NCBI RefSeq assembly: GCF_900111935.1
Contig: NZ_FOYN01000004.1
Span: 1-64,000 of the forward strand
Source: Halorubrum sodomense
Lineage (GTDB): Archaea > Halobacteriota > Halobacteria > Halobacteriales > Haloferacaceae
Length of the DNA: 64,000 bases
Direction of reading: 5' to 3'
Shown here: in pieces, positions 1 to 21,759 of the stretch
Layout of the letters: each line of letters starts with the position of its first letter
Numbering within the stretch: the stretch's first letter is position 1
Position numbers and translations under genes: made by a program
The notes under the pieces: model-generated
What the model saw: only the letters and a program-made list of their open reading frames with translations
Databases searched by the model: none
Told to the model about the DNA's origin: nothing

Positions 1-1869
1 TCTCGTCATACCTCGGATGGCGTAGATTGCCGGATCGTTGCGCCCGTTCTCAATCTCTTCTGTGAGAGACTCGATAGCGAAGTTGAACTTTTCAGTCGCT
101 TTTTTTGTTTCTCCCTGATTCTTGAGATGGCGACCAAAGAATATCCGAGTTGCAGTGTCATCAGAGTCGATGGATTGTAGAATGTATTGGTAGTGTACCG
201 TCGCAATCTCTGATGACTCTTCTGTGCCTAGTTCTGAAACTTGATTCGCAAATTGCCGGTGTGTTGATACTCTTCGTTCATTCTCTGCCTCAGGGAGATC
301 CGCCCGTAACTCGCTGAGGAGGTAGTTTGAAAAAGGTTCTAGAGCGTTGTCGACTGGATGCTGAATAGCTTCGATCTGAATATCGTGTACGCGGTATTCA
401 GTTTCACCTTTGAATGGATCTGTGTCTGAGTCACTGAGCGTAATCCACTGTTGGTTCAGTAATGGTTCAACGGGGTCTCGAAATCCATATTCCGGTGCAG
501 GACGGTTGAATACCTTCCTATACGCACCTTCCACGAGGGACTTATAGAATGGACTACCCGTGAGGGACAGAAGTTCAATAGTGCGCAGTATCCTTTGCGG
601 TTCCTCCCTGAGCTGCCCGTACTGATATTCCCACACTTCGAGAGCCGTCTCCGGAAGCCTCTCAATGTCTTCTTCTGTCAATTCATTATCTGCGAGACCG
701 ACGACAGACACCACGTAGAATGGTGAAGGGTCGGTCTGTAGGGCCTTCGCCACGAACTCTCGCACTACATCTTCACTCGCTTCTACTTCGTAGTGTTCCA
801 ACGTTCGACGCAGTATTTCGACGAGAACCTTTGGATCAAGCGGGGGAAGTTCGATTTGTTCAAACTCATACCAGAATGAATCTGGGTCGTTAAGACTTCC
901 AGGTAACTGATCAAGACGTTCTGATCGACTCGCGACAAGCACCCGAAGACTATACCCCTGGTTGTCAAGAATATTCTCTAGTTTCTTTACCAAACTTAGA
1001 ACCGTTGCGTCTTCTCCCTCTTCAGATATCTTATGTATGTCATCCCACAAGAGTAGTACATCCCCTGAAAAGGACTCCTGTTCAATCGCTCCAATATCCT
1101 CTCTCGAATCGAACCCTTCACTCGGAATAATAATATGTGAAATTTCGTCACTATCGATGCGTCGCGTTAATTCTGCGAGTGTCCGCGACTTGCCAACCCC
1201 TTTTCGTCCGATAAGCAGCAAACGATATGCTTCGATATCTTCGGGGAGAATTTCCCGGTCAACGAATTCAATATTTTCTGACGTTAACTCTCGTCGAGCT
1301 TGTTCAAAACCCTCAGGAGTCCCATCGAACAAAGTGTAGTACTGTCGCCGCTGGAGTAACTGTAGGATGTTGCCGATCTTTGCCTCAATTGCGCTACACT
1401 GCTCCAACAACTCTTCATCGTTTGCGAACCCAAGTAAGTCGGCGCGATCAGTACCAGCGATCCGCTGTTTGAAGTCCTGTACTGCCTCAGTATATGTTTC
1501 GGCAACAGCTTCTTTCACACTCCGGCGAATCCAGGAGCGAACCCTTGCCTCAGGGCCTACGGCATATAATATAGCATCGGTGATCTCTTCGATCGCCGCG
1601 TCTTCGTCGGAGAAGTCCAACTGCGTTTCTGCGCCCAACCTACGTTCAACTACTGTCCATTGCTCACCTATACCTGATATTTGTTCGATGTTTTGGTTTT
1701 CAATCCTTTCGGTGACACTATCGCGGAGCGAGCGATTAAAATCTTCACCAATTTCGCTGAGATCTTCAGAGAAATCTTCTGAAAGGGCATCTTCATAGTA
1801 TTCTTTACCGTGTGAGCCAGCCTTGGCTAAGCCAGTGGCGATTAGGCTGCTCACGACAGACTCAATCAT
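1..1869 (-). CDS. P-loop NTPase with helical-repeat C-terminus, partial (3' end beyond the window)
   Basis: An open frame runs from an ATG at 1869 to the left edge with no stop, at least 623 codons, so the C-terminus is missing. I translated it codon by codon. A helical N-terminus begins MIESVVSSLIATGLAKAG. A Walker A, GRKGVGKS, lies near residues 220-227, a Walker B-like stretch, DVLLLWDDIH, near 265-275, and a sensor-like VLVASRSERLDQLP near 310. The final visible part (NQGETKKATEKFNFAIESL and repeats before it) looks like TPR-type alpha-helical repeats. This order (NTPase, then a winged-helix-like segment, then repeats) resembles STAND/NACHT-type signalling ATPases, many of which serve in defence. 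The family assignment is inference. The DNA is AT-richer than the later parts of the window, which suggests transfer. No effector domain is visible. Confidence 0.8.
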   Translation of the reverse strand, partial: MIESVVSSLIATGLAKAGSHGKEYYEDALSEDFSEDLSEIGEDFNRSLRDSVTERIENQNIEQISGIGEQWTVVERRLGAETQLDFSDEDAAIEEITDAILYAVGPEARVRSWIRRSVKEAVAETYTEAVQDFKQRIAGTDRADLLGFANDEELLEQCSAIEAKIGNILQLLQRRQYYTLFDGTPEGFEQARRELTSENIEFVDREILPEDIEAYRLLLIGRKGVGKSRTLAELTRRIDSDEISHIIIPSEGFDSREDIGAIEQESFSGDVLLLWDDIHKISEEGEDATVLSLVKKLENILDNQGYSLRVLVASRSERLDQLPGSLNDPDSFWYEFEQIELPPLDPKVLVEILRRTLEHYEVEASEDVVREFVAKALQTDPSPFYVVSVVGLADNELTEEDIERLPETALEVWEYQYGQLREEPQRILRTIELLSLTGSPFYKSLVEGAYRKVFNRPAPEYGFRDPVEPLLNQQWITLSDSDTDPFKGETEYRVHDIQIEAIQHPVDNALEPFSNYLLSELRADLPEAENERRVSTHRQFANQVSELGTEESSEIATVHYQYILQSIDSDDTATRIFFGRHLKNQGETKKATEKFNFAIESLTEEIENGRNDPAIYAIRGMTR

Positions 1870-2296
1870 ACTGGCTGATACATGTATTCTATAAAACTAA
1901 ATATCTTTATTATGTGTGAATATCTATAATTAATGAACACTATTAGAATCGGGACTGGATGCTGTATCTGGTTTGGCAACTTTGATAATGATTTACTCAT
2001 CCCGAGCTGATATTCTGAGGTCGACTAAAACTACTCTACCACCACTCAAGTTCCTCATCTCACAGCCTGTGGGTAGCCCCATTTTGATGTTTGAAGAGCG
2101 TTTCCAAGTCCCATTCAGATACATACCACTCCAAAAGCGTCGGCCTCAACTACAGGACAATGTTGAGGATGTTTGCTGAACGGTGCTTCACGTTTCTATA
2201 CAAACGCGAAGAACAGCCGCCGAATCCGCCCCGATCACTCCCGAAACCCCGTCCGTCGCAACCTTCATATTTCATGGACATGCGGAGAAGCACGAA
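1870..2296. other. Intergenic stretch, no supported gene
   Basis: This gap of about 430 bases is AT-rich just upstream of the NTPase gene (1870-1935) and should hold its promoter. On the minus strand the 1890-1915 part reads as an A/T-run TATA-like region. Short open frames here (for example 1973-2179) have no codon bias or recognisable motif. The last 110 bases form an unlikely in-frame extension of the recombinase that follows. Confidence 0.5.
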
Positions 2297-2902
2297 ATGA
2301 GAACAGAGCGAAACCGCGACGGCTCCTGGAACGTCTGGATGTCCCGCGAGGAGTACCAGTCACTACCCCGAGCCGCTGGATCCTTCCAGCACGAGATCGC
2401 GATTCGGTTGATGGGTGACTGCGGACTCCGTGTCGGTGAGGTACTCGACGTCGAGCCTCGGCACATCTCCCGGATGACCGACGGCCGGCACTACGAGCTC
2501 GAAGTCGTCGGCGGGAAAGACACGACCGGCGAGTTCGTCGACGGGAAGCAGCGCGAGACGTGGCTCCCTGTCGACGTCGAGGCGACCATCAACCGCTACG
2601 TCCAGACCGAGGAGATCGCGCGGGACGAGTCGCTCGTCGACGTGACGAAGCGCACCGTTCAGAACTGGGTCGAGAAAGCCGCCGTCGGCGCTGCCGAAGA
2701 GAGCGGTGACTCGGACTTCGAGCGGGTGAGTACCCACGACCTCCGTCGCTGCTGGGCGAACCACTTGCTCGTCGAGGAACACGTCTCCCCGCGGATCGTG
2801 ATGGCGCTCGGCGGCTGGAGTTCCTATGACGCGATCGAGCCCTACCTCGCGGCGCCGACAGAGGAGAACATCATCGACTCGATGAGCGGGGTAGCGCTGT
2901 GA
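2297..2902 (+). CDS. Short tyrosine recombinase / integrase-family protein (catalytic domain only)
   Basis: This 201-residue protein carries the catalytic half of a tyrosine recombinase. It has GLRVGEV with the first arginine near residue 43, HDLRR as the H-x-x-R box, GGW, and a terminal EPYL tyrosine. The N-terminal SAM-like core-binding domain of XerC/phage integrases is absent. I start it at the ATG at 2297 (MRTERNRDGSWNVW) rather than at the upstream in-frame ATG at 2183, because the extra 38 residues show no conserved features. Short recombinases of this type are common in haloarchaea. It may act on an unlinked site or on dimers, or be a remnant of a larger element. Its GC content is higher than that of the flanking accessory genes. 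Confidence 0.8.
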   Translation: MRTERNRDGSWNVWMSREEYQSLPRAAGSFQHEIAIRLMGDCGLRVGEVLDVEPRHISRMTDGRHYELEVVGGKDTTGEFVDGKQRETWLPVDVEATINRYVQTEEIARDESLVDVTKRTVQNWVEKAAVGAAEESGDSDFERVSTHDLRRCWANHLLVEEHVSPRIVMALGGWSSYDAIEPYLAAPTEENIIDSMSGVAL

Positions 2903-3159
2903 GCAACGGTCGTGCGGAGCTCACGTCTTCCGGTTTTGGTTGAGCGGCGTTGTTTGTGATCTTCTCCGGAACCCTAGTGTTCGCTCACGACGACGGGATC
3001 TCCCGTTCTAATCGGTTCGCAGAAGAGCCGCTCGTGTCCGACTCTCCATGACTTCCTTGACAACAATATGAGTAGATTGCCCGACTCTCTACCCGAAGTA
3101 CACCAGCATTAGAAACACACTCTTAGTAGCACTATCGACCGATGCTGGTTCTCATGTCG

Positions 3160-4167
3160 CTACTTTTCAGTCCATTGCTCGTAGTAGTCCAGTACGGTGT
3201 CTATGCCTTCGTGTATGCTGTACTGTACCTCCTGATATGGGTACTCTTCAACTGCTCCTTCCTCACTCGGTGTCGGTGGTCCACTGTTGGTGTCACGACT
3301 GCCACTCGCGTATGTGAGCCCTACAACGGTCCCGTCAAGTGTAATGAGTGGTGACCCACTATTTCCAGATGTAGACGGCATCTCTGTATGTAGTCCATTC
3401 CCGAATTCCTGATCTTTAAGGAATTCACCGAGACTGATGACCCAATTCCCAATCATTGCTGGATGCCCGACCTGGACAAGTGGTTGACCAGCAGTCAGTG
3501 AAGACGCAGTCCCGAGTGGTGGGATATAGGGGGCTGTCACGTCGGTCTCAACCAGTGCTATATCATCATCTTCCGCTGTGTGACTAACCGAAAAATCAAA
3601 TTCTGTGCCGTCAAGGAGATATCCAGTCTTCGAAGTAGCAGTACCCGCGTCCTGAACAACGTGTCTATTCGTGATGATGTGATTCTGGTCGATGAACCAC
3701 CCTGTTCCACTTGAACCAAAATTGCCTTCGTACTCGAATTCGAACAAGACGACAGCTTCTCGAAGCTTCCGACCGGCGTCAGTCGCAGATTGTCTCACTT
3801 CAGCACTGTACTGATACTCTACAGACTGTTCTAGTTCCTCAATTCGGGCCTCGGCTTCCCTGAGATCAGACCTTAGAGACCTAGCAGTTTGATCCTTCTC
3901 GTTGGACCTCTCTTGAAGTTCCTCCAGATCCTGACGTAGCGACACGATCTCCTCGTCCTTTGACGAAATGTCATCCTGAAGAGACTCAACCCTGCTCTGT
4001 AACTCCGCAATACGATTCTGAAGCTCAGCTCTAGACTTTCCCGAAGTATTCGATGACGGTGCGGTTGTTGATCCCGAACTACCTAGGATATTAGAGCACC
4101 CAGCTGTCCCTGTAACGGCCCCAACTGAGGTAAGTTCCAAGAGACGCCGTCGAGAGATTGAATCCAT
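3160..4167 (-). CDS. Tat-exported lipoprotein: coiled coil plus trypsin-like serine protease
   Basis: A predicted 335-residue exported protease. The N-terminus has a twin-arginine signal (ISRRRLLELTSVGAV) ending in a TAGC lipobox with Cys24, so it is probably tethered to the outer membrane face. A Ser/Gly linker leads into a heptad-rich coiled coil at about 45-118. A trypsin-fold (PA clan, DegP/HtrA-like) domain follows. The triad is visible as His169 in TNRHV, Asp202 in DDDIAL and Ser270 in GNSGSP. There is no PDZ domain. The start at 4167 places the signal peptide at the N-terminus; an in-frame ATG at 4290 would bury it. The gene is divergent from the HNH/beta-propeller gene across 277 bases. 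The substrate is unknown. The neighbour's extracellular domain is an attractive but unproven target. Confidence 0.88.
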   Translation of the reverse strand: MDSISRRRLLELTSVGAVTGTAGCSNILGSSGSTTAPSSNTSGKSRAELQNRIAELQSRVESLQDDISSKDEEIVSLRQDLEELQERSNEKDQTARSLRSDLREAEARIEELEQSVEYQYSAEVRQSATDAGRKLREAVVLFEFEYEGNFGSSGTGWFIDQNHIITNRHVVQDAGTATSKTGYLLDGTEFDFSVSHTAEDDDIALVETDVTAPYIPPLGTASSLTAGQPLVQVGHPAMIGNWVISLGEFLKDQEFGNGLHTEMPSTSGNSGSPLITLDGTVVGLTYASGSRDTNSGPPTPSEEGAVEEYPYQEVQYSIHEGIDTVLDYYEQWTEK

Positions 4168-4444
4168 ATATGTGTTCTGTAGCCTACATGTAAATATGTA
4201 TTTATTTCTGGGTTTTTGATGACAGGGATAGCCAACGTTTTGACACACCGGTCTTTTCCAACTTCCCTCTAGTTTTAGATACGTGAACACTATTGGCCTC
4301 CGTGAAAAAACTCAGACTTGGCCCACTCTCAAACGACTCAAGATCGAGTAGTGCTATTGGCATGCTCAAAATCTGATTGAGATACATATACCTATATCAG
4401 ACCAGATATCTATACGATAAGATAGACTTAGTGTTCATTCTGTA
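4168..4444. promoter_or_regulatory. Divergent promoter region between protease and HNH/beta-propeller genes
   Basis: A 277-base AT-rich spacer between two divergently read genes. On the minus strand an A/T-run element at about 4190-4203 lies 25-35 bases before the protease start, suitable for an archaeal TATA box. On the plus strand a TATA-like run near 4407-4420 sits about 30 bases before the nuclease ATG. A shared control region fits joint regulation of the pair. No clear operator palindrome was seen. Confidence 0.45.
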
Positions 4445-6541
4445 ATGTCCTCAGACAAAACCACATCTACCACCCGAGAGATGTACGAGAAATACGGAAT
4501 TGACCGAAAGTACGACCATCCTTCTAACGTATCCGAAGAGAACTCCCACTTCGGAAACGGAAATTACCCCCCAGACTGGACTGACCGCCGCGAAGCTGTT
4601 CTCGAACATCAGAATGGTCGATGTGCCCGTTGCCGTATTTCACTATCTGGTGAATATTATTTTAATTGTCATCACTACCGACCAGTTAGCAAAAATGGAC
4701 AACACAGCCTCAGCAATCTGGTTAATCTCTGTGCTGACTGTCATAAGCTCATCCACCCAGATGTAGAGAACCTCGATGGTGAGTGGAGAGATGCGCCGAT
4801 CTTCCCGCACCCCGATGCGGATCCTCGAATGGCGACAGTTCGGAGACCTGTGACTGACGGCGAAAAACAAGAGTTCCAGCCTGAAATTTCACTAATTGCC
4901 GACAAGAGCCCGGTTGGCGAAAACGAATTTGCGAACTCTGCTGTAACGATTCCGGTCAGCCCAGGTGATGCTTTACGGATGCGAAATGAATTCGACCAAC
5001 TTCTCGAAGATATGGGGCTCGCAAAATCTACCGCTCTGACCATTCGTACTGTCAATAGCGAGCACTCCCCGCTGCGAGACAGTTTAGTCGAGGTTGCGTT
5101 CCCGACGAGTGGTACCAAAATGAGCTCTCGAACCGACAAACACGGAGAAGTGGAATTCTCGATCCCGTCTGGGACACAGGTGGAAGTGGGTATTACGAAA
5201 GATGGATTTGATCAAGCTACCAGCTCTTTCGATGTCGGTGGGGACGAGGACTACCAGGAAATCACACTGGAAACCAGTGGTCAGGCTGGAGCGGCAGGTT
5301 CGACCCCGAGTACTGATAGCGCGACATCAGGAGGAGGTGGAGACGAGTCACGTCGCCCTATCCTGAAAACTCTTGGACTCGTTGGGGTAGGCGGAATTGC
5401 CGGGTACTTTTTTAGCGGTGACAGTAACCAGCCCAGTTCCGCATCGGAAGACGATGTGTCGGGTGGAGACGGAACTGGCACAACACAGAGTGACTCTCCA
5501 ACTTCGACTGATACCCCGGTGAAAGGATTCACAGAAGAATGGACGGATGCTATCGACACTTACGAAACGATTACCACTCTCGAAAGGGGCGACTCAGCCA
5601 TCTATGCGGGGACCGATTCGTCACTTGTACGGAGCCTTTCTCCAGAAGGAAAAGAAAACTGGACACAAGGTTTTGACGGGAAGCTGATTCATCTTGGGAC
5701 AACTAATGATAGTCTAATACTAGTCACTACAAGTCTCGTAACCTCCCTCAGAAAGGATTCAGGTGAAACACAGTGGAGTGTCAGCCACAACGCGACTGGC
5801 TACAATTCGAGGCCTGATGCTGCTAATAATGAAGATGTAGTCGTGCTGGCTTCCAGTGGTCAAGAGAAATTTCTCCAAGCATTCTCAACTAGTGCTGGGG
5901 ACACAATCTGGGAAATGACAGATGACTATTTTTATTATCCAGTCTTTCTCAATGGCTCGCTATTCTATAGTGGAGGCGAACTAAAGTCCATAAAAGAACC
6001 AGGACAATCTGGCGAGAAATCACAGGTAACTATCCCTGAGACTGATTATTCAGGCGGTCTCGCAGTGGGAGAGTCACTAGCCTACTACATTACTGGCGGG
6101 GGTGAACGCGGGGGAGCTTACAGTGGGAGCGAGCCTATTGAACTCCACGCGATCGAACTCGAACGTGAGGAAGTGGTCTGGAAAGAGACCGTCGCAAGTG
6201 AGATCAACTCAGAAGATACGGGGGTTAGTCCTTCAATTAGTGGTCCGACAATCAACTCGGGAGTTTTTATATATACTACAGGCGGCATCTGGCATGGTGA
6301 TTTTTCCGGAGAAGAAATATGGACGCACGGAGACTATGAAGCGAGGTTTACAGAACCAGTATGGCTGGGAGATACACTATTTTATTACTCCAATGATGGA
6401 CTGACTGGCTGTGGAAAGTCGGATGGAGCGGTGACACATAGAATGGAGATCGACGAAGAAGTCGTGACGCTCAGTAGTTTTGCTGAGTCCGTGATTATTG
6501 GGACCGAATCTGGAAAAACACGAATGTTAACTCCAGACTGA
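4445..6541 (+). CDS. HNH endonuclease - internal Tat-like anchor - beta-propeller fusion
   Basis: This is a 698-residue protein with an unusual domain order. Residues 45-105 form a zinc-bound HNH nuclease: Cys60-x2-Cys63, His76-His77, Asn91/Asn94, Cys96-x2-Cys99-His100 and His104. Residues about 200-275 look like a beta-sandwich of the carboxypeptidase-regulatory type (LVEVAFPTSG... GEVEFSIPSG). A Gly-rich linker leads to residues 302-324 (SRRPILKTLGLVGVGGIAG), one hydrophobic helix preceded by twin arginines that looks like a Tat signal but sits mid-protein. A Ser/Thr/Asp-rich linker follows, then PQQ-like beta-propeller repeats from about 362 to the end (for example GKENWTQGF, GETQWSVS, GDTIWEM). 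The expected topology is nuclease inside and propeller outside. The gene is AT-richer than the background. Domain calls rest on motifs; the function is unknown. Confidence 0.85.
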   Translation: MSSDKTTSTTREMYEKYGIDRKYDHPSNVSEENSHFGNGNYPPDWTDRREAVLEHQNGRCARCRISLSGEYYFNCHHYRPVSKNGQHSLSNLVNLCADCHKLIHPDVENLDGEWRDAPIFPHPDADPRMATVRRPVTDGEKQEFQPEISLIADKSPVGENEFANSAVTIPVSPGDALRMRNEFDQLLEDMGLAKSTALTIRTVNSEHSPLRDSLVEVAFPTSGTKMSSRTDKHGEVEFSIPSGTQVEVGITKDGFDQATSSFDVGGDEDYQEITLETSGQAGAAGSTPSTDSATSGGGGDESRRPILKTLGLVGVGGIAGYFFSGDSNQPSSASEDDVSGGDGTGTTQSDSPTSTDTPVKGFTEEWTDAIDTYETITTLERGDSAIYAGTDSSLVRSLSPEGKENWTQGFDGKLIHLGTTNDSLILVTTSLVTSLRKDSGETQWSVSHNATGYNSRPDAANNEDVVVLASSGQEKFLQAFSTSAGDTIWEMTDDYFYYPVFLNGSLFYSGGELKSIKEPGQSGEKSQVTIPETDYSGGLAVGESLAYYITGGGERGGAYSGSEPIELHAIELEREEVVWKETVASEINSEDTGVSPSISGPTINSGVFIYTTGGIWHGDFSGEEIWTHGDYEARFTEPVWLGDTLFYYSNDGLTGCGKSDGAVTHRMEIDEEVVTLSSFAESVIIGTESGKTRMLTPD

Positions 6542-6744
6542 TCTGAGAGATTATCGCATCGGCGAAGACGTAGACAGACTATTCTTGTCTAGCGCGTAAT
6601 CCAGAGCGGTCAAGTGACCACAACTGGAGGATTGATAAAATAGATCGGCAACTCGCCAGTTGGGCGAAAAGGATGTGCTTCTCGCCATGTGCTAGTAGCA
6701 TCTGACCCAGTCAGAGACACCGCTCTTATCCGGACAAATTGTGA

Positions 6745-7215
6745 ATGAGTATACACATGAAGTGGACACAAGTGCTTGACAGAGTTGTTCTGACGTATCC
6801 AGTTGTACTGATATCCGTGGTATCTATCCTTATCACCGTGGTAATACAGTACACGCTTCCATTAGCAGAGCTTCAAACTCTGTTTTGGGGTATACTTGGT
6901 ATTGGATTACTGGGAGATTCAATCACTACAGGCTATTTGAGTAAATTTGGTCTCAATGAGCAAGATAGAGGCTACACTCGCTGGGCTTGTGGTGCTGAGC
7001 CTACATTACTTTGTGCGGGTGGTACAAGGCTAGTCGTCTTCGGTGCGATACTAATACCGTACCTTCTAATATTCAGCTACGAACCTCTTCAAGAATATTA
7101 TATTATACATCTAACCGGATTGCTGATACCTGTAGCCTTTGGATTAATGGCTGTTGGAGCAACACTCGTCAACTGGTACGCAATGTGGCGACATAGAGGT
7201 AGGACAGCGACCTAA
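6745..7215 (+). CDS. Four-helix integral membrane protein, unknown function
   Basis: A 156-residue protein with about four hydrophobic segments: roughly residues 14-36, 42-60, 95-112 and 122-146. It has short charged loops and a basic C-terminus (MWRHRGRTAT). There are two cysteines, in RWACGAEPTLLCAGG between helices 2 and 3. No family was recognised. The gene follows the HNH/beta-propeller gene by about 200 bases on the same strand and has the same low GC content. It could belong to the same accessory unit, perhaps as a membrane partner, but only adjacency supports this. Confidence 0.65.
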   Translation: MSIHMKWTQVLDRVVLTYPVVLISVVSILITVVIQYTLPLAELQTLFWGILGIGLLGDSITTGYLSKFGLNEQDRGYTRWACGAEPTLLCAGGTRLVVFGAILIPYLLIFSYEPLQEYYIIHLTGLLIPVAFGLMAVGATLVNWYAMWRHRGRTAT

Positions 7216-7254
7216 TTGAGTGAAGCTGTTTGACTCTCCACCAGTCCCAGACAC

Positions 7255-7680
7255 CTATACAGTCAGTGAATGTTCGTCAGCGGTGTACGCAACTGTAGTG
7301 ATTGTATCTAGATCTTCGTCAGGCAGTATATACTCATCATCAAAAGCATCAGCGTCCACCTTGCGGATGTCGATTATATCCATTTGGGCTAGAGGTCGGA
7401 TCATTGTGTAGAACTGCCGGGTAGCATCAATCTCTGAATTCGGCGTCGGATGATTGTCTTCAACAGGGTATTTTTTATCAAATTCCGACTTCTCCATCCT
7501 CATTTGATCCTCGGAGACTTTTTTCGCCTTATCCCAATCTGCGACTCCGAGCTCGTTCGCGAGTTCCCGGAGGTTATAGGCTTTGTTTGGGTGGTTGCTG
7601 AGAAAATCAACGACTATGGATTCGGCCGTCGGCGATTCATCCCCAGTCCTCCAATCCCCAGAATCTCGTTCAATCGGCAT
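7255..7680 (-). CDS. Winged-helix DNA-binding protein (probable regulator)
   Basis: A 141-residue acidic protein. Residues 18-50 (ESIVVDFLSNHPNKAYNLRE, then LANELG) look like the first helices of a winged helix-turn-helix. A long middle helix (KKVSEDQMRMEKSEFDKK) and a C-terminal segment (FYTMIRPLAQMDIIDIRKV) follow, similar to a second DNA-binding or dimer region. No metal or ligand site is evident. It converges with the membrane protein gene and is divergent from the orc gene, so it may regulate the intervening repeat-bearing promoter. The regulator call is moderately secure; the target is unknown. Confidence 0.65.
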   Translation of the reverse strand: MPIERDSGDWRTGDESPTAESIVVDFLSNHPNKAYNLRELANELGVADWDKAKKVSEDQMRMEKSEFDKKYPVEDNHPTPNSEIDATRQFYTMIRPLAQMDIIDIRKVDADAFDDEYILPDEDLDTITTVAYTADEHSLTV

Positions 7681-7741
7681 ACATCATCATATCAACCCGT
7701 CTAATAAAGTCTTGAGTGACCGTAGTGAAAGTGATTCCAGC

Positions 7742-7784
7742 ACCATCCGGAACCATCCGGAACACCGAGGGTTTCGCTTAAATC
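7742..7784 (+). promoter_or_regulatory. Tandem 10-bp repeats with BRE/TATA-like element upstream of orc gene
   Basis: Two perfect copies of ACCATCCGGA (7742-7751 and 7752-7761) are followed by ACACC, a short G-run (GAGGG, 7767-7771), and a CTTAAAT TATA-like box at 7777-7783. The box lies about 28 bases before the GTG start at 7808, which fits a leaderless transcript. The repeat plus G-run loosely resembles haloarchaeal origin recognition boxes (dyad, then G-string), so it may be an Orc1 binding site, an operator, or both. The same repeat recurs at 14749-14830. Confidence 0.55.
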
Positions 7785-7807
7785 CCGGTACTGTCTCCTG
7801 GTGAGAC

Positions 7808-8839
7808 GTGATAAGCGACGGAGCAGTTTTCGAAGACGACCACCTTCCAGATCCGATCGTCGGCCGGAACAGCCACATGAACGAAGTCACCGACGCCCTT
7901 GCCCCGATCGAAGACGGCCAGCGCGCCGAGAACTGCTTTCTCTTCGGTCCCTCCGGCGCCGGGAAGACAACCGTCGCGAGGGCCGCTGTTCGCGAGCTCC
8001 GACGGGAGGTCCTCGACGTCCCGTACGCCTACGTAAACTGCTGGCGGGACTACACCCGGAACGCCGTGCTCGAACGACTCTCTCGCGACCTCGTCGGCGC
8101 CGCGGTTCCACGCTCGGCGTCGACGTCGACGCTCCTCGATCGCGTCCATCGTGACTTCAACGGCCCGGGCGTCGTCATCCTCGACGAGGTCGACCAGCTG
8201 CGCGAGACCGAGCTGCTCTACGACCTCCACGAGTTCCGCGGGCTCTCGTGGATCGGCATCGCGAACGACGAGGTCGACCTGCTCGCCGATCTCGACGAGC
8301 GCGTTCGCTCTCGCGTCTCAGTCGGCTACCGGGTCCGGTTCGACCGGTACGGCGAGGATACGATCGCGGAGATTCTAGAGCGACGGGCTCGTGAGGGGCT
8401 GGGGCCGAACGCCGCGAGCGACGAGGTGTTCGAGACGATCGCGCGGCTCGCCGACGGCGACGCTCGCATGGGGATCACGACGCTCCGGGCGGCGGCGCGG
8501 AAGGCGAGCAGCGAGGGCCTGTCGAACATTCCGAGGCGGCTCGTCGAGGACTCGATCTCCGAGGCGGAGCAGGAGATCGCGCGGAAGACGTACTCGAAGC
8601 TGAACGATCACCAGCGGGTTGTCGTCGACGTGCTTCAGGAGGAAGGACCGTTGATCCAGCGCGAGCTCCACGAGCGGTACTCCGAGCGTCACGATGACCC
8701 GGTTAGTCTGCGGTATTTCCGGGACGCACACCTGGCGAAGCTAGAACACTACGAACTCGTCGAGACAGAAAGTCGGGCCGGAAAGAAGCTCTATAGCCTC
8801 TCAGAGCCCGCTAGTATCGGCCGTGTAGCGCAGCCTTAG
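7808..8839 (+). CDS. Orc1/Cdc6 family replication initiator ATPase
   Basis: The product has 343 residues and is an Orc1/Cdc6-type AAA+ ATPase, the archaeal origin-binding initiator that recruits MCM. It has VGRNSHMNEV at the N-terminus, Walker A GPSGAGKTT (47-55), Walker B VVILDEVDQL (about 122-131), an arginine-bearing ERVRSRV segment, and a C-terminal winged helix (about 265-335, LNDHQRVVVDVLQEEGPL). It is shorter than typical chromosomal Orc1 proteins (about 400), as is common on plasmids and integrated replicons. The start is the GTG at 7808, placed about 28 bases after a TATA-like box. It sits beside restriction genes, so this block may derive from a plasmid-like element. An alternative ATG at residue 24 would remove the VGR motif. 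Confidence 0.9.
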   Translation: MISDGAVFEDDHLPDPIVGRNSHMNEVTDALAPIEDGQRAENCFLFGPSGAGKTTVARAAVRELRREVLDVPYAYVNCWRDYTRNAVLERLSRDLVGAAVPRSASTSTLLDRVHRDFNGPGVVILDEVDQLRETELLYDLHEFRGLSWIGIANDEVDLLADLDERVRSRVSVGYRVRFDRYGEDTIAEILERRAREGLGPNAASDEVFETIARLADGDARMGITTLRAAARKASSEGLSNIPRRLVEDSISEAEQEIARKTYSKLNDHQRVVVDVLQEEGPLIQRELHERYSERHDDPVSLRYFRDAHLAKLEHYELVETESRAGKKLYSLSEPASIGRVAQP

Positions 8840-8965
8840 CCGATTACTCAGGTTATTTTAGAATCAAGATATCGTCTTGAACTCCCGACTAGATGTTCCA
8901 GGGTACCCACCGGGCTGGCTAACCCACAGCCAGTTTCTTATCGGCGCACGTGAAAGTCGGGCGTA

Positions 8966-11900
8966 ATGTCGGCCTCCGGCTCACAAACTGAGTTCGATTT
9001 TGACGACTTCGACACCGACGTCTCCCGAAAGGATGAGGATGCTGTCATCGAGGCGATCGCCGAGTCGATCGGCAGGATGCGCGATCAGATCGACGACGAC
9101 GATCTCGATGGGATTCTGCGATCAACGCCTGCTCCGTACAATTTCAAGTCCAAGTACACCACTGACCAGCTGGATCCCGAGCCATTCACGAAGGCGCGTG
9201 TAATCGAGCCCCTGCTTAAGACACTCGGCTACGATGACTACGGATACGAAGCGGGAGATTTCTCTGACACACGTGGCGAACAGGCGGACTACGCGATCTC
9301 GCTTCGTGACGTCGCCAGCGTCGACTCCTCGCGGCTCCTGATCGAAGCGGAACCGCTCAACAAGCCCCTCGAAGATCGCGGGCATGGACTGGACCAAGTG
9401 AAGTCGTGGCTCAGCCAGCGCGAGTTCGAGTCTGACTACGGGTTCGCGACGGACGGGATCCGCTGGATCTTCGTCCGGTACGACGCCGACTCGTACACGC
9501 ACAACGTCATCTCCGACGTCAATCTCCGTCCTGTTTTCCAGAGACTCCACCAGAACGCGTCGACGACGAACGACCCCGCGACCGAGGTCGTCACCGACGA
9601 TGAACGCGAGCTCGTCGCGGAGCTGGTGCGGACGTTCGCAAACACGAATTTCCGGTCGATTATCGACGACGCGCAGGATGTCATTAAAGAGAAGCAGGAG
9701 GCCGTCACCGACGAGTTCTACGACGACTACATCAAGTACGTGTTCGGCGTCGCGGAGGGGGAAGACGAGCGCCGGGCTCGGAGCCTCGTCGGCGACGGCG
9801 TCATGCCACCGGACGATGCCGACGGAGACGACACACGGCTGTTCTCCGTCGACTTGATGAATCGGCTCATCTTCATCAAGTTCCTCGAAGACAAGCGCAT
9901 CGTCCGACCCGACTTACTGCGCACCATCCTCGATACCTACGAGAGCGGCGTGTACCCGCAGACGATGTACAAGTCGTTCTTCGACCCGCTGTTCTACGAC
10001 GTATTCAACGAGAAGGAAGACCAGCGGGAGTCGCACATTGAGGACATCGACCTCTACAGCGAGATTCCGTATCTCAACGGTGGCCTGTTCCGGCCGGAAC
10101 TCAGCAACGACTCCGACGTCGACGAGCGCGGATTCAACGTCCGAGACAGCGTCCTCGAATCGATCATCGAGCTCTTAGAGCGCTACCAGTTCTCTGTCGA
10201 CGGCGGACCGACAGACATCGACCCGAGCGTCCTCGGTTCGGTGTTCGAGAAGACGATCAACTACCTCACCACCGATCCCGCCGATCAGAACGCCGACCTG
10301 GGCGCCTACTACACTCCAAAGGAAATCACCCGGTTCAGCGCCGAGCAGACGGTTCGTCCCGCACTAAAGGAACGATTCGAGCGCATCTTGATCGAGGATC
10401 GGGGTTGGCCCGAGGCCGAGATCAAACAGTACGACACGCTCTACGAGCTCATCGATGGACTCGCTGCGTCTAAGGACATGATTTTGACGCTACTCGACGA
10501 CGTCGACGATTTCTATGTCGTGGATCCGTCGATGGGTTCGGGGCACTTCCTCACGTCCGTCGTAGAGGAGATCACCAACGTCCGCCAAGAACTGTGGGCG
10601 ACGCTCGACAAGACACCGAGCCGGCACCGCGTGAAACAGACAACGGTACAGGAGAACATCTACGGTGTCGACATCATGGAGCCCGCCGTCGAGATCGGGA
10701 AGCTACGATTGTGGCTCTCGATTGTCTCCGAGCTGGAGGCAGAAGACGTCGATGACTTGAGTACCGAGCAGCTGGCGTTGCCGAATATCACGTTCAACGT
10801 CCGTCAGGGGAACTCGCTGATTGGCTACGTTGGGTTCCAAGAAGAGACAGAAGATGGATTAGCAACATTTGAGCAGTGGACAGAAGACAGTGTCCGCTCG
10901 CGATATGATGATGTCATTGAGGAAATCGAACTCCATGAGGAGTACAGTGCTTTCCCGGAGAAAGCTGAAAAGCATCGGGAGAATGCGCTCAAATTATTAG
11001 ACGAATACCGAGAAGATCTTAATGAAGACATACTCGCTGACTTCCGTGATATTGTTGATGATGTTTCTGAGAGCGATTTACAGAACTATGATCCCTTCCA
11101 CTGGGTGCTAGAATTTGCTGAGGTGTTCAATGCAGGCGGATTTGATGTTATTGTTGGAAATCCTCCATGGGATGTGTTAACAACAGATCGCGAGGAGTTC
11201 TTTGCTCGCTATGATCCGCGATTTAGAACCCGAACGCAGAGTGAGAAAGATGAGATAGAAAATGAACTATTGGAGGATGAGGAGATCCAGACTGATTTCA
11301 ATGCGTATAAGGAAAGCATGCGACACAGGGCAGATTATTTTAATGGCTCAGAGGTTTATCAACTCCAAACACCCAAAATAGCAGGAAAGACGGCCTCAAA
11401 TAACCAAAACGAATTGTCTGCCTTATTCCTTGAGAGAATATATTCACTTGCTGCAGACGAGGGTTACGTCTCGCAGGTATTACCTGGAACCATCTTTTCT
11501 GGATCAAATACAAAGGATATTCGCCTTCATCTACTTGATGAAACAGATGTACAATCAATAGTTGGATTTGAGAACCATGGAATATTCGAATCAATTGATA
11601 ATCGATATAAGTTTGCTGTCACCACCTTCAAAAACTCTGGAAGTACCGATGTTCTTCAGGGCACATTTCAGCAACGAGATCTGGCTATACTCAAAAACTT
11701 CAGACATCATACAATTGAGATTCCGAGAACCGTTCTTAGAGAATTTTCACCACAGTCGGGGGTGTTCCCTTTCGTAACAAAACAAGAGGAGGTAGACACC
11801 TTACATAGAATTCTTCAAAATCCGTCCATTGGTGAGGAAATAGAGGGAACCTGGAAAATAGATCCGTACTCAGAGGTACATCGTTCAAAAGATTCTGAAT

Positions 11901-12814
11901 ATCTATTTGAGGATGAATTGCGTGGTGACTATCCAATCTATGAGGGAAAGAATGTATATCAATTTTCATATAACAGCGAGTACTTTGATATTGGCGACAT
12001 ATCTCTCTGGGGAATTTCGGAGGAGAAAGATCAGGACAAGAGCGCTAAAGCAATGATTCGAGGAAAGGGAGTACGCAATCTGAAACGTTCTATTTATGAT
12101 GAAATGGGAGGTAATAAAACAAGCAAATCCCAAGTTCAATTTGTAAATGACCTTCTAGAGCGTGAGCGTGGAGAACCGCTATCCGATAAAGATGTTCTAC
12201 TTGACTGTACTACATATCGGATTGCAGTTCGGGAGGTAGCAAGGGCGAATGATGAAAGAACGCTCATTGCGTCGGTGATACCCAAAGGTTCAGTCGCTGT
12301 CCATACTGTTCACACTATTCGTCCCTACGATATTGAACCTGAGAAAGAAGATTTGGAAGCTGTACCACTACACAGTGTATACGAACGTAGATTCTCCGAC
12401 AAAGAGCTGTTTGTGGCCCTTGGATTGTTGAACAGTATTCCGTTTGACTTCCTGATGAGAACAAAAGTTGAGAGCCATATTGTCATGTACAAGCTCAGAG
12501 AATCACAGATGCCACGTCTAACTGAGGGTGACAACTGGTTCGAACACATCTGGACACGAGCTGCGAAACTCAACTGCTACGGTGATTCGTTCGCCGAGAT
12601 GCGCGATCGCCTTGACCTCGAAGCTGCGACGTCATCGGATGAGCGCGAACGGATTCAGGCAGAACTCGACGCTGGTGCGTTCCACGCATATGGCCTCGAT
12701 CGTGAGCAAACCGAGTTCGTGCTCGACGATTTCTACCAGGTACAAAATCCGCGCCGGATGACAGACGAGTACTTTGATCTTGTCCTCAAGAAGTACGACG
12801 AGTTCGCGCCTTAG
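8966..12814 (+). CDS. Type IIG restriction-modification enzyme (Eco57I-like adenine methylase/nuclease)
   Basis: A 1282-residue single-chain restriction-modification protein. The N-terminal part (about 60-200) resembles a PD-(D/E)XK nuclease (ADYAIS...LLIEAEPLNK). The usual ExK lysine is a glutamate here, so cleavage activity is uncertain. The N6-adenine methyltransferase has motif I DPSMGSGHFL at 520 and motif IV NPPW at 732, separated by a helical insertion. The C-terminal half should contain the target-recognition region. The gene begins and ends GC-rich, but about 10840-12520 is distinctly AT-rich, suggesting replacement of the specificity module. A GmrSD-like nuclease gene lies 102 bases downstream on the same strand. 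A hairpin (TCAAGA/TCTTGA) between the orc gene and this gene, near 8872-8888, may be an orc terminator. Confidence 0.88.
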   Translation: MSASGSQTEFDFDDFDTDVSRKDEDAVIEAIAESIGRMRDQIDDDDLDGILRSTPAPYNFKSKYTTDQLDPEPFTKARVIEPLLKTLGYDDYGYEAGDFSDTRGEQADYAISLRDVASVDSSRLLIEAEPLNKPLEDRGHGLDQVKSWLSQREFESDYGFATDGIRWIFVRYDADSYTHNVISDVNLRPVFQRLHQNASTTNDPATEVVTDDERELVAELVRTFANTNFRSIIDDAQDVIKEKQEAVTDEFYDDYIKYVFGVAEGEDERRARSLVGDGVMPPDDADGDDTRLFSVDLMNRLIFIKFLEDKRIVRPDLLRTILDTYESGVYPQTMYKSFFDPLFYDVFNEKEDQRESHIEDIDLYSEIPYLNGGLFRPELSNDSDVDERGFNVRDSVLESIIELLERYQFSVDGGPTDIDPSVLGSVFEKTINYLTTDPADQNADLGAYYTPKEITRFSAEQTVRPALKERFERILIEDRGWPEAEIKQYDTLYELIDGLAASKDMILTLLDDVDDFYVVDPSMGSGHFLTSVVEEITNVRQELWATLDKTPSRHRVKQTTVQENIYGVDIMEPAVEIGKLRLWLSIVSELEAEDVDDLSTEQLALPNITFNVRQGNSLIGYVGFQEETEDGLATFEQWTEDSVRSRYDDVIEEIELHEEYSAFPEKAEKHRENALKLLDEYREDLNEDILADFRDIVDDVSESDLQNYDPFHWVLEFAEVFNAGGFDVIVGNPPWDVLTTDREEFFARYDPRFRTRTQSEKDEIENELLEDEEIQTDFNAYKESMRHRADYFNGSEVYQLQTPKIAGKTASNNQNELSALFLERIYSLAADEGYVSQVLPGTIFSGSNTKDIRLHLLDETDVQSIVGFENHGIFESIDNRYKFAVTTFKNSGSTDVLQGTFQQRDLAILKNFRHHTIEIPRTVLREFSPQSGVFPFVTKQEEVDTLHRILQNPSIGEEIEGTWKIDPYSEVHRSKDSEYLFEDELRGDYPIYEGKNVYQFSYNSEYFDIGDISLWGISEEKDQDKSAKAMIRGKGVRNLKRSIYDEMGGNKTSKSQVQFVNDLLERERGEPLSDKDVLLDCTTYRIAVREVARANDERTLIASVIPKGSVAVHTVHTIRPYDIEPEKEDLEAVPLHSVYERRFSDKELFVALGLLNSIPFDFLMRTKVESHIVMYKLRESQMPRLTEGDNWFEHIWTRAAKLNCYGDSFAEMRDRLDLEAATSSDERERIQAELDAGAFHAYGLDREQTEFVLDDFYQVQNPRRMTDEYFDLVLKKYDEFAP

Positions 12815-12915
12815 GTACTTAGTAAAAACTCCCTACTGTCTTCATCCCAATTGGACGGGAATCGCCGAGGAATTTTCTTTGTGTTTTATTTATACTCGAA
12901 TGATACATTTCGGAC

Positions 12916-14622
12916 ATGCCGAACGGGATTGGACTCTCTGCGACTGAAGATACAGTCGAACAGGTTCTCACCCGGAACTACCGTTATACTGTTCCGGACT
13001 ACCAGCGTCGCTACTCGTGGCAGGAAGAACAGTGGGGGGCGTTGTGGGCTGATCTAAACTCAATCCGGCCTGACTCAACGCACTTTTTGGGTTCGGTTGT
13101 CCTCATCGAGCGCTCAAGTGGCCTGAATGAACTGAACAAACTGGAAATTGTTGACGGCCAGCAGCGGATCGCAACGATCACTGTCCTTCTGTCGTTGATG
13201 CGGGAGAAGTACTACGAGTTGGGAGAGCCAGGGCAGGCTGAGGATATCGAGAACAAGTATCTCAAGAAGCAAGATCTTGATCTGAACGAGTACCAGAATC
13301 TCACTCTCAGCACGTTCGACAACCCCAACCTAGAGAAGGTGATCGAGCGGAAATACGAGAAGATGGATGAAGGACAGCTGCGTGAAGCTGTCCAGTTCTA
13401 CGCGAGCAAGCTCGATGACTTGGACACTCAAGAACTAGATGAGTTGAGAAAGCGACTCTTAGCGTCAGTTACGCTTGTATCGATCCGCTGTGAGGGAGAA
13501 CAGTCTGCGTTCCGCCTGTTCGAGACACTGAACGATCGGGGTATGGAACTATCATCAGTCGATCTGATGAAGAACTACACGTTTAGTAAGGCTGCGAGTG
13601 CTCCTGATTCGGAGATCGACTACGAGCAGGTACAGAACGACTGGGAGCGACTCATTAAGACACTCATGCCGAACATGAGTCAACCGAGTCGATTCTTCCG
13701 ACATTACATCATGTCTGCGTCAGAGCCGAATTATGATGGCGACGTCTCTGACTACAAACTATACGATGAGTACCAGAAGATTGTCGATTCCAAGCTCCCT
13801 GAAGCAGGGATCTCGCTGAATGAGTACGTTTCTGAGGTGGCTGACAAGGCAGAGCTCTACGCAAAGATTCTCTGCCACGAAATCGACATGTACGACGATG
13901 CGGGCAACAAGGCAATTAATTCCAAGCTTGAAGATTTAGAGATCATCAATTCTGTCCAAGCGAGGACACTCATTCTGCGTGTCTTTGAAGAATATAATAC
14001 GGCAAATAAGGTAATGGAGAGTCTACTTCTCCTCGAAAGCTTCCTGATGCGCTGGAAGGTATCCAGCTATCCGACTGGTGGGGAACTTGATCGGATTTAC
14101 TCCCGGATTTGCTCTGAAGCCTTTGAGAAAGAAAACTCGATCCGCGAGATCTACAGTGGACTTTCAGATCGGTGCCCCAGCGACGAGGAGTTCATTGCGT
14201 CGATTGAAAATAAACGAGTGCGGCTAAACGACCGTACGAGCTATATCCTCAAACGGCTTGAGATGGACTACTACGACGGCGCAAAAGTGAATCTTGACGA
14301 GCTAGATCGCGAGCACATCGCGCCAAGAGCCTCCTTCACAGCCAAAAAATACAGTGCGTGGCCCTCTACACTCGGTACTACGGAAGCTCAATTTGAACAG
14401 TTCCGAGATAAACTCGGGAACCTCACGTTACTTGAGACAGACAAGAACATATCCATCGGTGCCGATCCATTTGAAAAGAAGAAAGAGGCATACGCTGAGT
14501 CAAAACTCAGTATGAACCAGCAACTTTGTGAGGATTACGACAACTGGAGTACTGATGAGATCGAACAGCGGACTTCTGAATTAGCGAATGCGATGGTTCA
14601 AATTTGGAATCTAGATGCCTAA
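12916..14622 (+). CDS. DUF262/DUF1524 protein (GmrSD-like modification-dependent nuclease)
   Basis: The 568-residue product joins an N-terminal DUF262 ParB-like NTP-binding domain to a C-terminal HNH-type DUF1524 nuclease. The DUF262 part has the YTVPDYQRRYSW segment and the hallmark VDGQQRIATI near residues 80-90. The C-terminal part (about 455-540) has REHIAPR, LGNLTLLE and a downstream Asn, which match the H-N-H arrangement. GmrSD-type enzymes are NTP-stimulated nucleases cutting modified (for example glucosylated) DNA. The architecture fits but the substrate is inferred. A TATA-like run (about 12886-12896) lies close before the ATG, so the gene probably has its own leaderless promoter. 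Confidence 0.88.
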   Translation: MPNGIGLSATEDTVEQVLTRNYRYTVPDYQRRYSWQEEQWGALWADLNSIRPDSTHFLGSVVLIERSSGLNELNKLEIVDGQQRIATITVLLSLMREKYYELGEPGQAEDIENKYLKKQDLDLNEYQNLTLSTFDNPNLEKVIERKYEKMDEGQLREAVQFYASKLDDLDTQELDELRKRLLASVTLVSIRCEGEQSAFRLFETLNDRGMELSSVDLMKNYTFSKAASAPDSEIDYEQVQNDWERLIKTLMPNMSQPSRFFRHYIMSASEPNYDGDVSDYKLYDEYQKIVDSKLPEAGISLNEYVSEVADKAELYAKILCHEIDMYDDAGNKAINSKLEDLEIINSVQARTLILRVFEEYNTANKVMESLLLLESFLMRWKVSSYPTGGELDRIYSRICSEAFEKENSIREIYSGLSDRCPSDEEFIASIENKRVRLNDRTSYILKRLEMDYYDGAKVNLDELDREHIAPRASFTAKKYSAWPSTLGTTEAQFEQFRDKLGNLTLLETDKNISIGADPFEKKKEAYAESKLSMNQQLCEDYDNWSTDEIEQRTSELANAMVQIWNLDA

Positions 14623-20013: not shown

Positions 20014-20318
20014 GCGAGAGCAACGTCGAGCGCCGCGTCGTCGACGCCGAGCGCCCACTTACGGGGGTAACGTACGGGCCTGCGGTCGACGCCGACGGCT
20101 ACGTTCTCACGCTGATCACGGCGGACGGCCCGCTCGAAGTCGAGTTCGACCAGGAGGCGATGTACCTGCTCTGGACCGAGGTCAAGGGCACGCCGTGGCC
20201 GGACCCGCCGACGTCGACCGAGCGGGACCTGCTGGTGAAGCGCCTCGTCGAGCTCGCGAACGGCGCCGATGAGGAGATGCTGCGGGACGCGATCCGCGCA
20301 CTCGGAGGTAAGCGGTGA
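20010..20318 (+). CDS. Provirus-type hypothetical protein
   Basis: A 102-residue protein. The N-terminal half is predicted beta-rich (GYVLTLITADGPLEVEFDQE), with a helical C-terminus (RDLLVKRLVELANGADEEML). It starts at an ATG overlapping the preceding stop and ends overlapping the integrase GTG. No family is recognised. Confidence 0.6.
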   Translation: MSESNVERRVVDAERPLTGVTYGPAVDADGYVLTLITADGPLEVEFDQEAMYLLWTEVKGTPWPDPPTSTERDLLVKRLVELANGADEEMLRDAIRALGGKR

Positions 20319-21463
20319 GGGACGACTCGTACGAGGCGCCGGCGGGCGGTGAGGAGTTGATCCCGATGGCGCCGCAGGAGGCGCTCGACATCTGGCTCGA
20401 ACGCCAGGAGATGGACAAGGCGGAGAGCACGGTCCAGAGCTATCGCTACCGGGTCAAGCCGTTCGTCGAGTACCTCGAGGATGAGGAGGGTATCGAGAAC
20501 CTGAACGACCTGAACGGCCGTCACCTGCTCCGGTTCGATTCGATGCGCCGGTCGAGCGGCGACATTCAGAAGAACACGCTGAACAACCAACTCGGGACGA
20601 TCCGGCAGTTCCTCGAGTTCGGGATCAAGGCGAACGCGGTCAAGCCTACGGTCGCCAGTCAGGTCGACATCCCGCACGTTTCGAAGGACGAGCGGATCAA
20701 CCGCGAGAAGCTCCCGACGCAGCGCGCGAAGGACATCCTCGCGTTCCTCGACCGCTACGAGTACGCGAGCCGTGACCACGTCATCGCGTTCCTGCTCTGG
20801 GAGACCGGCGCCCGTGCGGGTTCGCTCCGAGCGCTCGACCTGGAAGACGTCTACCTCGAGGAGGACGACCTCGACCGGCTACGGTACCAGGAGGATCTTG
20901 ACGTCGGGGAGTCCGTCCTAGAGGACATCCTCACGGGCGTCGAGCTCCCATTCATCTACTTCCGACACCGGCCGGAGACCGACACGCCGCTGAAAAAGAA
21001 GGACAGCGGCGCGCGGCCGGTGAACATCTCGGAGGAACTCGGCGACGTGCTCGGCGCGTACATCCGAGTCCGCCGAGCGGCGGGGACCGACGAGCACGGA
21101 CGGAAGCCGTTGCTCTCCTCGAAGAAGGCGCCGGGCCGGATCACCGTCTCTGGAATCCGGATTCGGTCGTACGAGATTACTCAGCCGTGCCAGGTCGGGA
21201 AGGAGTGCCCTCACGATCGCGACCCCGAGGAATGCGAGGCACGGGTGCCCGGACAGAAGTCGCGTTGCCCGTCGGTTCGGTCACCGCACAAGTGGCGGAC
21301 GGGCTCGGTGACGTGGCATCGCGACCGAGGGTGGCCGCCGGAGGAGATTGCGACGAAGATGGCGACCTCTGTGGAGCTGGTGAACAGCGTCTACGACCAA
21401 CCCGAGCAGCTGAAGCGGATGGCGATCCGCCGCGAGAACCTCGACAAACTGTACGAACAATGA
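20315..21463 (+). CDS. Tyrosine integrase of an integrative element, with Cys-rich insertion
   Basis: A complete 382-residue tyrosine recombinase. The N-terminal core-binding domain (about 20-115) is followed by the catalytic domain with Arg167 (GARAGSL), His325-x2-Arg328 (HKWR) and nucleophile Tyr360 (NSVYDQP). A cysteine-rich insertion (QPCQVGKECPHDRDPEEC to SRCP) lies just before the HxxR box and probably forms a zinc knuckle, as in many haloarchaeal integrases. Integrases join circular element DNA to a host att site, often a tRNA gene; no tRNA was recognised nearby. It starts at a GTG coupled to the preceding gene and is the last gene of the operon, so one element end should lie downstream within a few hundred bases. 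Confidence 0.92.
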   Translation: MRDDSYEAPAGGEELIPMAPQEALDIWLERQEMDKAESTVQSYRYRVKPFVEYLEDEEGIENLNDLNGRHLLRFDSMRRSSGDIQKNTLNNQLGTIRQFLEFGIKANAVKPTVASQVDIPHVSKDERINREKLPTQRAKDILAFLDRYEYASRDHVIAFLLWETGARAGSLRALDLEDVYLEEDDLDRLRYQEDLDVGESVLEDILTGVELPFIYFRHRPETDTPLKKKDSGARPVNISEELGDVLGAYIRVRRAAGTDEHGRKPLLSSKKAPGRITVSGIRIRSYEITQPCQVGKECPHDRDPEECEARVPGQKSRCPSVRSPHKWRTGSVTWHRDRGWPPEEIATKMATSVELVNSVYDQPEQLKRMAIRRENLDKLYEQ

Positions 21464-21759
21464 TACACTCAAACGACACTCTCGATTCGGATGAAGCGCA
21501 GCAAAAACCGTGTTTGTGTCCTCAGCGGTCCCATCAGATTCTTTACAGATTGCCGTTATCGGCAGTCTCAACGCCTTCTAACGCCCGAAAAACGCATTCG
21601 AGGGTGCGCTATGAACCGCCAAATCGGCGGTTCCGACGAAACCGCGCAGTGCCGGTACTGTGATGATGATATCTCTGACATAGACCGAATAGTACTCGCT
21701 GAAGCCAGCGATGGCCGCTAGAGCGACGTTGTATGTTTTCTCGGCTAATACGCGCGGGT
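21464..21759. other. Possible element end: intergenic region with hairpins and a doubtful 36-codon ORF
   Basis: This is the spacer after the integrase. It contains two short dyads: TGCCG/CGGCA around 21550-21563, and GAACCGCC (21613-21620) with GGCGGTTC (21626-21633). An ORF at 21611-21721 (36 codons, with one CRYC motif) begins at the ATG just before the second dyad. It may be a tiny zinc-binding protein or chance. A junction (att) site is expected hereabouts from the integrase position, but I could not identify a matching direct repeat. Confidence 0.4.

Follow-up and report, generated by a model that had tools for sequence, protein, structure and literature searches.

A rare divergent gene pair of Halorubrum encoding a predicted lipid-anchored protease and an HNH-propeller protein with a putative internal Tat anchor

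The two genes and their predicted products

The window analyzed here is a stretch of 64,000 nucleotides of Halorubrum sodomense (contig NZ_FOYN01000004.1, positions 1 to 64,000), and all positions below without another locus name refer to it. The original prediction placed near its left end a secreted, lipid-anchored, coiled-coil serine protease, divergent from a gene whose product joins an HNH nuclease to an exported beta-propeller. Domain matches and motif reading uphold both parts of this description at the level of sequence (Table 1).

Table 1. Features of the gene pair and of the island edge (window positions; functions and locations of protein features are predicted)
Feature	Position	Strand	Basis
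Tat-lipoprotein coiled-coil trypsin-like serine protease, 335 aa	3160..4167	-	Trypsin_2 E=9e-19
Protease, trypsin-like domain, aa ~150-290, with H169, D202, S270	3298..3720	-	Trypsin_2 match
Protease, coiled coil, aa ~44-125	3793..4038	-	coiled-coil type matches
Protease, Tat signal and lipobox, aa 1-24, SRRRLLELTSVGAVTGTAGC	4096..4167	-	sequence reading; motif identical in H. xinjiangense orthologue
Divergent intergenic region	4168..4444	.	277 bp in H. sodomense and H. xinjiangense alike
HNH - Ig-like - internal Tat anchor - beta-propeller protein, 698 aa	4445..6541	+	Pfam/NCBIfam matches; orthologue 87% identical
HNH nuclease domain, aa ~41-105	4565..4759	+	PF01844 7.8e-10 (match aa 60-104)
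Ig-like CarboxypepD_reg match, aa 203-275	5051..5269	+	PF13620 6.6e-4 with whole protein, 6.2e-5 with stretch alone
Internal twin-arginine motif and weak TM helix, aa 302-323, SRRPILKTLGLVGVGGIAGYFF	5348..5413	+	aligned RR-TM in L042
Ser/Thr/Asp/Gly-rich linker, aa 324-362	5414..5530	+	sequence reading; fast-evolving
PQQ/BamB-like beta-propeller, aa 363-698	5531..6538	+	PF13360 3.6e-9, TIGR03300 5.5e-9
Tyrosine integrase gene, island edge	20315..21463	+	PF02899 1.9e-7
Copy of tRNA-Pro(GGG) 3' end and flank, att-like island boundary	21521..21663	+	just after integrase gene

The protease reading frame is open on the minus strand over 3160-4290, with candidate starts at GTG 4290 and ATG 4167. Because the orthologue in Halorubrum xinjiangense (90% identity) is conserved from the same ATG onward, the most likely start is the ATG at 4167 (MDSISRRRLLELTSVGAVTGTAGC, with Tat motif and lipobox) rather than the upstream GTG. 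The product is predicted to be exported and held by a lipid anchor on the outer face of the membrane. The Trypsin_2 match covers residues 154 to 284, and the catalytic triad (H169, D202, S270) is intact in sequence. The closest solved relatives of the protease domain are the HhoA/HtrA proteases, whose S1C-type trypsin-like domain it shares; the PDZ domain that follows the trypsin-like domain in HtrA/Deg proteases is absent from its listed domain matches, just 45 residues remaining after that domain.

The HNH-propeller gene is a single unbroken reading frame in both species. Its HNH match scores 39.2 bits, above the curated cut-off of 21.4, and the zinc and HNH residues (C60, C63, H76, H77, N91, C96, C99, H100, and H104) are invariant among seven aligned HNH relatives. 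Thus, the domain is apparently intact as a putative nuclease. The CarboxypepD_reg match falls under its curated cut-off. Within the predicted propeller, the PF13360 (PQQ_2) match at residues 387 to 490 scores 37.1 bits, above the curated 27.6, while the BamB equivalog model TIGR03300 scores 35.2 bits, below the 285.2 curated for BamB itself. An AlphaFold2 model of the propeller, made from a two-sequence alignment, reached a pLDDT of 27.

Tat signals carry a twin-arginine motif with the consensus (S/T)RRxFLK and are typically only weakly hydrophobic. The HNH-propeller protein has a near-consensus SRRPILK directly ahead of its sole internal hydrophobic stretch, a single weak TM segment (residues 306 to 322, Kyte-Doolittle value 1.5). 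All 25 residues from 301 to 325 are the same in both species, the codons differing by 8 synonymous and 0 non-synonymous changes. Because no ATG, GTG, or TTG start codon occurs between residues 249 and 301, the propeller lacks a start of its own near the Tat motif and is not made separately behind an N-terminal signal. The fusion and its layout, with HNH inside, propeller outside, and one membrane crossing between them, are well supported as a reading of the sequence; export and this topology in vivo are predicted. If the anchor functions in this way, the linker would lie outside.

Internal uncleaved Tat signals have been described in actinobacterial Rieske proteins (Sco2149 and others), where TM helices precede them (PMC5449189, PMC4383559). 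As proposed for the window protein, such a signal exports a folded C-terminal domain; however, the described dual Sec-Tat families have an even number of Sec-inserted TM helices first, two or more, whereas the window protein has zero before the motif, formally also an even number, and begins with a soluble nuclease region. A limited literature search turned up no precedent for such a signal placed after a soluble enzyme domain, or after a soluble region of 300 residues as in the window protein.

Among the fetched loci, an internal twin-arginine motif and TM segment behind a long N-terminal region were seen in three contexts: the window protein, a protein of genome G385 (L042:8282-10201), and a J-domain/beta-helix protein at L033. 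The L042 protein, of 639 residues, consists of a weakly J-like N-terminus in place of the HNH domain, an acidic Ser/Thr-rich linker, an internal STRRLLL TM segment, and a homologous propeller. Its anchor-plus-propeller aligns full-length with the window protein (BLASTP 4e-11), and among 292 genomes its only nearly full-length matches are that protein and its orthologue. No protease was found near the L042 gene. Two further candidates, at L066 and L108, seem to owe the pattern to wrongly assigned start codons. A J-domain search for additional internal-Tat proteins returned only ordinary DnaJ and J-multiTM proteins, and a stricter search gave none.

Conservation of the pair and its island setting

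The full two-gene architecture is present in 2 of 391 sampled genomes of the haloarchaeal class and in 2 of 52 of the genus, namely those of H. sodomense and H. xinjiangense. The DNA common to the two loci, window 3027-6688 at 88.7% identity, comprises exactly the two genes. Beyond this block, the next shared DNA is the first part of an Orc1/Cdc6-like gene (7752-8089), and the 1063 bp in between, which hold ORFs 6745-7215 and 7255-7680, are missing from the H. xinjiangense locus. The dN/dS ratio between the species is 0.26 for the HNH-propeller protein and 0.31 for the protease; both genes are under purifying selection. The expectation that the neighbors would stay paired therefore holds for one close relative, in different surroundings, and for none of the divergent relatives examined. 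The evidence for pairing comes from one lineage of two species, with one genome per species.

A membrane protein encoded just downstream had also been proposed as part of the system. ORF 6745-7215 does exist and encodes a membrane protein of 156 residues, in which three strong TM segments were counted rather than the four helices first described. Its membership was rejected, together with that of the wHTH-like ORF 7255-7680, as both lie in the segment missing from H. xinjiangense; neither has a family match.

The block is AT-rich, as first noted. Its GC content is 0.488, compared with 0.65-0.70 over most of the window; in H. xinjiangense it is likewise about 0.49, and the flanks there have 0.70. 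Between the two species, the core DNA next to the tRNA mostly shows 89.5-95.8% identity, and thus the pair, at 88.7%, has diverged about as much as the chromosome or slightly more. This fits an old acquisition retained since the common ancestor of the two species; parallel acquisition by each is conceivable.

The H. xinjiangense pair is located some 0.5 kb past the 3' end of tRNA-Pro(GGG). In the window, a copy of the 3' end of this tRNA gene marks the att-like island boundary, and the intact tRNA-Pro of the H. sodomense genome is at G000:C9:940156. From that gene, contig C9 continues downstream for 19 kb and stops in TPR repeats oriented like the truncated STAND gene of window 1-1869, and for this reason the window contig (C6) and C9 are probably joined through a split STAND-TPR NTPase gene, whose other part would be the C9 end (L224). 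The joined island would measure about 41 kb.

The restriction and NTPase neighbors noted originally are a type IIG restriction-modification (RM) enzyme, GmrSD, an Orc1/Cdc6-like AAA ATPase, and the truncated STAND-TPR protein; an adenine methyltransferase accompanies them. The tRNA-Pro island setting holds two integrase genes. The pair thus sits on a defence-rich mobile island, an address that is weak evidence of function. At the same tRNA-Pro site, other Halorubrum genomes carry varied cargo, which in some of them includes a large RM-type gene or gene sets that resemble a provirus. The region immediately downstream of the intact tRNA-Pro (L224:7060-18547) contains genes that, by appearance only, resemble a pleolipovirus-type provirus (a large spike-like protein, an NTPase, and small membrane proteins). 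Beyond the att-like site, window 22602-26861 encodes a type IIG/DrmMI-like methyltransferase of 1419 residues, and a close look-alike is found near the same tRNA-Pro in genome G012.

Separate relatives and known systems

The nuclease and propeller parts, whose separate occurrence would speak against the original prediction, do occur apart: the former at eight other haloarchaeal loci, and the Tat anchor and propeller behind a different domain in L042. The HNH N-terminal region, about 200 residues, defines a small haloarchaeal family found at L033-L037, L168, L169, and L170, with about 30-38% identity to the window protein where measured. In place of a propeller, these relatives carry one to three TM helices at the C-terminus, suggesting that the HNH domain of this family is habitually membrane-bound. 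At least one of them, L168, has an Ig-like CarboxypepD_reg match before the TM segment, as does the window protein. Most lie among ordinary chromosomal genes, and no protease was found near any of the eight. At L169:3309-5682 (genome G429), the HNH-TM gene is 215 bp downstream of, and on the same strand as, a gene for the haloarchaeal actin volactin (Pfam 1.8e-108), and L170:776-2454 of the same genome holds two tandem HNH-TM genes.

The protease group is common in haloarchaea, being present in 159 of 391 genomes at 1e-8, with varied neighbors. An HNH probe of the called genes beside 30 fetched protease-homologue loci revealed no HNH-TM-propeller partner outside the two known pairs, with genes in all fetched loci called by a simple composition score that may miss neighbors; the domain probes also covered loci L081 to L085. 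A Halorubrum genome (G343) contains a protease remnant of 58 residues (62% identity), and the partner is absent. The closest full-length coiled-coil homologues (L069, L070, and L073, all from one genus) have beside them a MaoC-like gene as well as a gene for a PQQ propeller that lacks a signal peptide. This PQQ gene, two genes away from each of the three, was considered as a conserved partner and rejected; with no signal, and in a single genus, its proximity is probably coincidental.

Pairs of an HNH-superfamily nuclease and a trypsin-like peptidase are known as NucA-trypsin conflict systems (System 3 of Kaur et al. 2020), for which proteolytic activation has been proposed (PMC7159879). They are mostly alphaproteobacterial, have TM segments in several cases, and sometimes include a STAND NTPase (PMC7159879). 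The window pair likewise combines a nuclease with a trypsin-like peptidase, as divergent neighbors in both species. However, its nuclease is a classic zinc HNH (PF01844), with no NucA (Endonuclease NS) model reported; the nuclease and protease are predicted on opposite faces of the membrane; a propeller is present; no EAD domain is seen; and the host is haloarchaeal.

In Zorya II, the HNH nickase ZorE is the effector of a membrane complex (PMC11890865), and the window protein similarly would place an HNH nuclease effector on the inner side of a component that spans the envelope. Its match to ZorE is confined to the HNH core (1.4e-6; NCBIfam 2.6e-4, 20 bits where the curated cut-off is 600). 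Neither the proteins of window 2183-14619 nor the truncated first ORF matched ZorA or ZorB, save for a chance coiled-coil match of the protease. By the features tested, the pair belongs to neither NucA-trypsin nor Zorya II and seems to be a rare variation on conflict modules that combine a nuclease with a protease.

Proposed mechanism and alternatives

We favor as most economical, at a probability of roughly 40%, the idea that the pair is a small mobile module of conflict or defence, in which an uncleaved internal Tat anchor links a propeller ectodomain at the surface to an HNH nuclease in the cytoplasm, with the protease on the same outer face as the propeller. The 4445-6541 protein would be made in the cytoplasm, and its twin-arginine signal anchor, internal and probably not cleaved, would let Tat thread the C-terminal propeller out, while the approximately 300 N-terminal residues with the HNH nuclease remain inside. 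The propeller may then bind or respond to something at the cell surface, virus attachment having been the example first suggested, with the protease as a possible trigger. The lipid-anchored protease could cut the linker or the ectodomain, or remove the ligand, upon which the inner nuclease would be released or activated to cut DNA. Sensing, the coupling of protease to propeller, DNA as the target, and a benefit against viruses or rival mobile elements are all steps that we infer. For the action of the protease on linker or ectodomain, the grounds are the shared compartment, the adjacency of the genes, and the NucA-trypsin precedent (PMC7159879). The module as a whole is proposed because of the domains and catalytic residues, the conservation of the pair as an exact block, the dN/dS values, the Tat segment, the lack of a separate propeller start, the comparable layouts in L042 and L033, the membrane-bound HNH relatives, the defence-rich tRNA-Pro island, and the published precedents. 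Against it stand the single pairing lineage, the approximately 30 divergent protease loci and eight HNH-TM loci without the partner, the mostly ordinary chromosomal surroundings of the HNH-TM relatives, the low weight of a defence-island address, and the weak TM segment (KD 1.5).

An unlikely alternative, though the one that survives best, is a membrane-tethered HNH nuclease that cuts incoming DNA (from a virus, a plasmid, or mating) without surface signaling, its propeller anchoring to or binding the surface layer and the protease being a chance HtrA-like neighbor. HNH-TM relatives that have neither propeller nor protease are consistent with such a tethered enzyme, as are the commonness of the protease homologues, their varied neighbors, and the HtrA type of the nearest solved relatives. 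A chance neighbor, however, does not account well for two genes that stay linked as an exact block next to a segment that is not shared, or for purifying selection on both of them within a mobile island.

Rather improbable is a selfish function, in which the module would serve the island rather than the host by excluding rival elements or guarding the island (superinfection exclusion or an addiction-like role). The low GC content, the tRNA-Pro site with its two integrase genes, and the provirus-like genes downstream of the intact tRNA-Pro argue for this. Yet no viral or plasmid relatives of the pair came to light: the pair has no match in phages or IMG/VR, the HNH profile hits only generic HNH fragments among viral sequences, and plasmids yield only generic HNH-domain matches; nor was an antitoxin-like partner identified.

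An envelope quality-control or signaling role, with a Deg/HtrA-like protease, a BamB-like propeller, and an HNH-type domain that regulates by binding DNA or RNA and does not cut, agrees with the profile resemblances to HtrA and BamB but is quite improbable for a pair whose HNH residues are all intact and whose rarity and AT-rich mobile location are unlike those of housekeeping genes. We similarly doubt that the hydrophobic stretch is no working Tat anchor, leaving the whole 4445-6541 protein cytoplasmic and apart from the protease: the weakness of the TM segment and the TM-first order of the described families (PMC5449189) speak for this, but the SRRxxLK is fully conserved, L042 has an aligned RR-TM and L033 another, the only such contexts among the fetched loci, and weak hydrophobicity is normal for Tat signals.

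More tentatively still than the proposed module itself, these proteins may exemplify an undescribed layout of haloarchaeal single-polypeptide transmembrane sensor-effectors. Such proteins would keep a soluble enzyme or chaperone-like domain inside and export a folded beta-propeller or beta-helix by Tat through an internal uncleaved anchor; here, the outer lipid-anchored protease would control the ectodomain and thereby the nuclease. If the topology is true, Tat can build bitopic signaling proteins, exporting a C-terminal half behind a folded cytoplasmic enzyme with no earlier TM helices. Archaea would gain a direct means of coupling what happens at the surface to an effector that cuts DNA, and nuclease-protease conflict modules would extend to a two-sided membrane arrangement in this domain of life. 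Haloarchaea have genetics and laboratory viruses, which makes the proposal testable. At L033:9799-14438, an HNH-TM gene of the family lies beside the gene for the protein with an N-terminal J domain, internal twin-arginine TM segment, and right-handed beta-helix, which is followed by a DnaK/Hsp70 gene.
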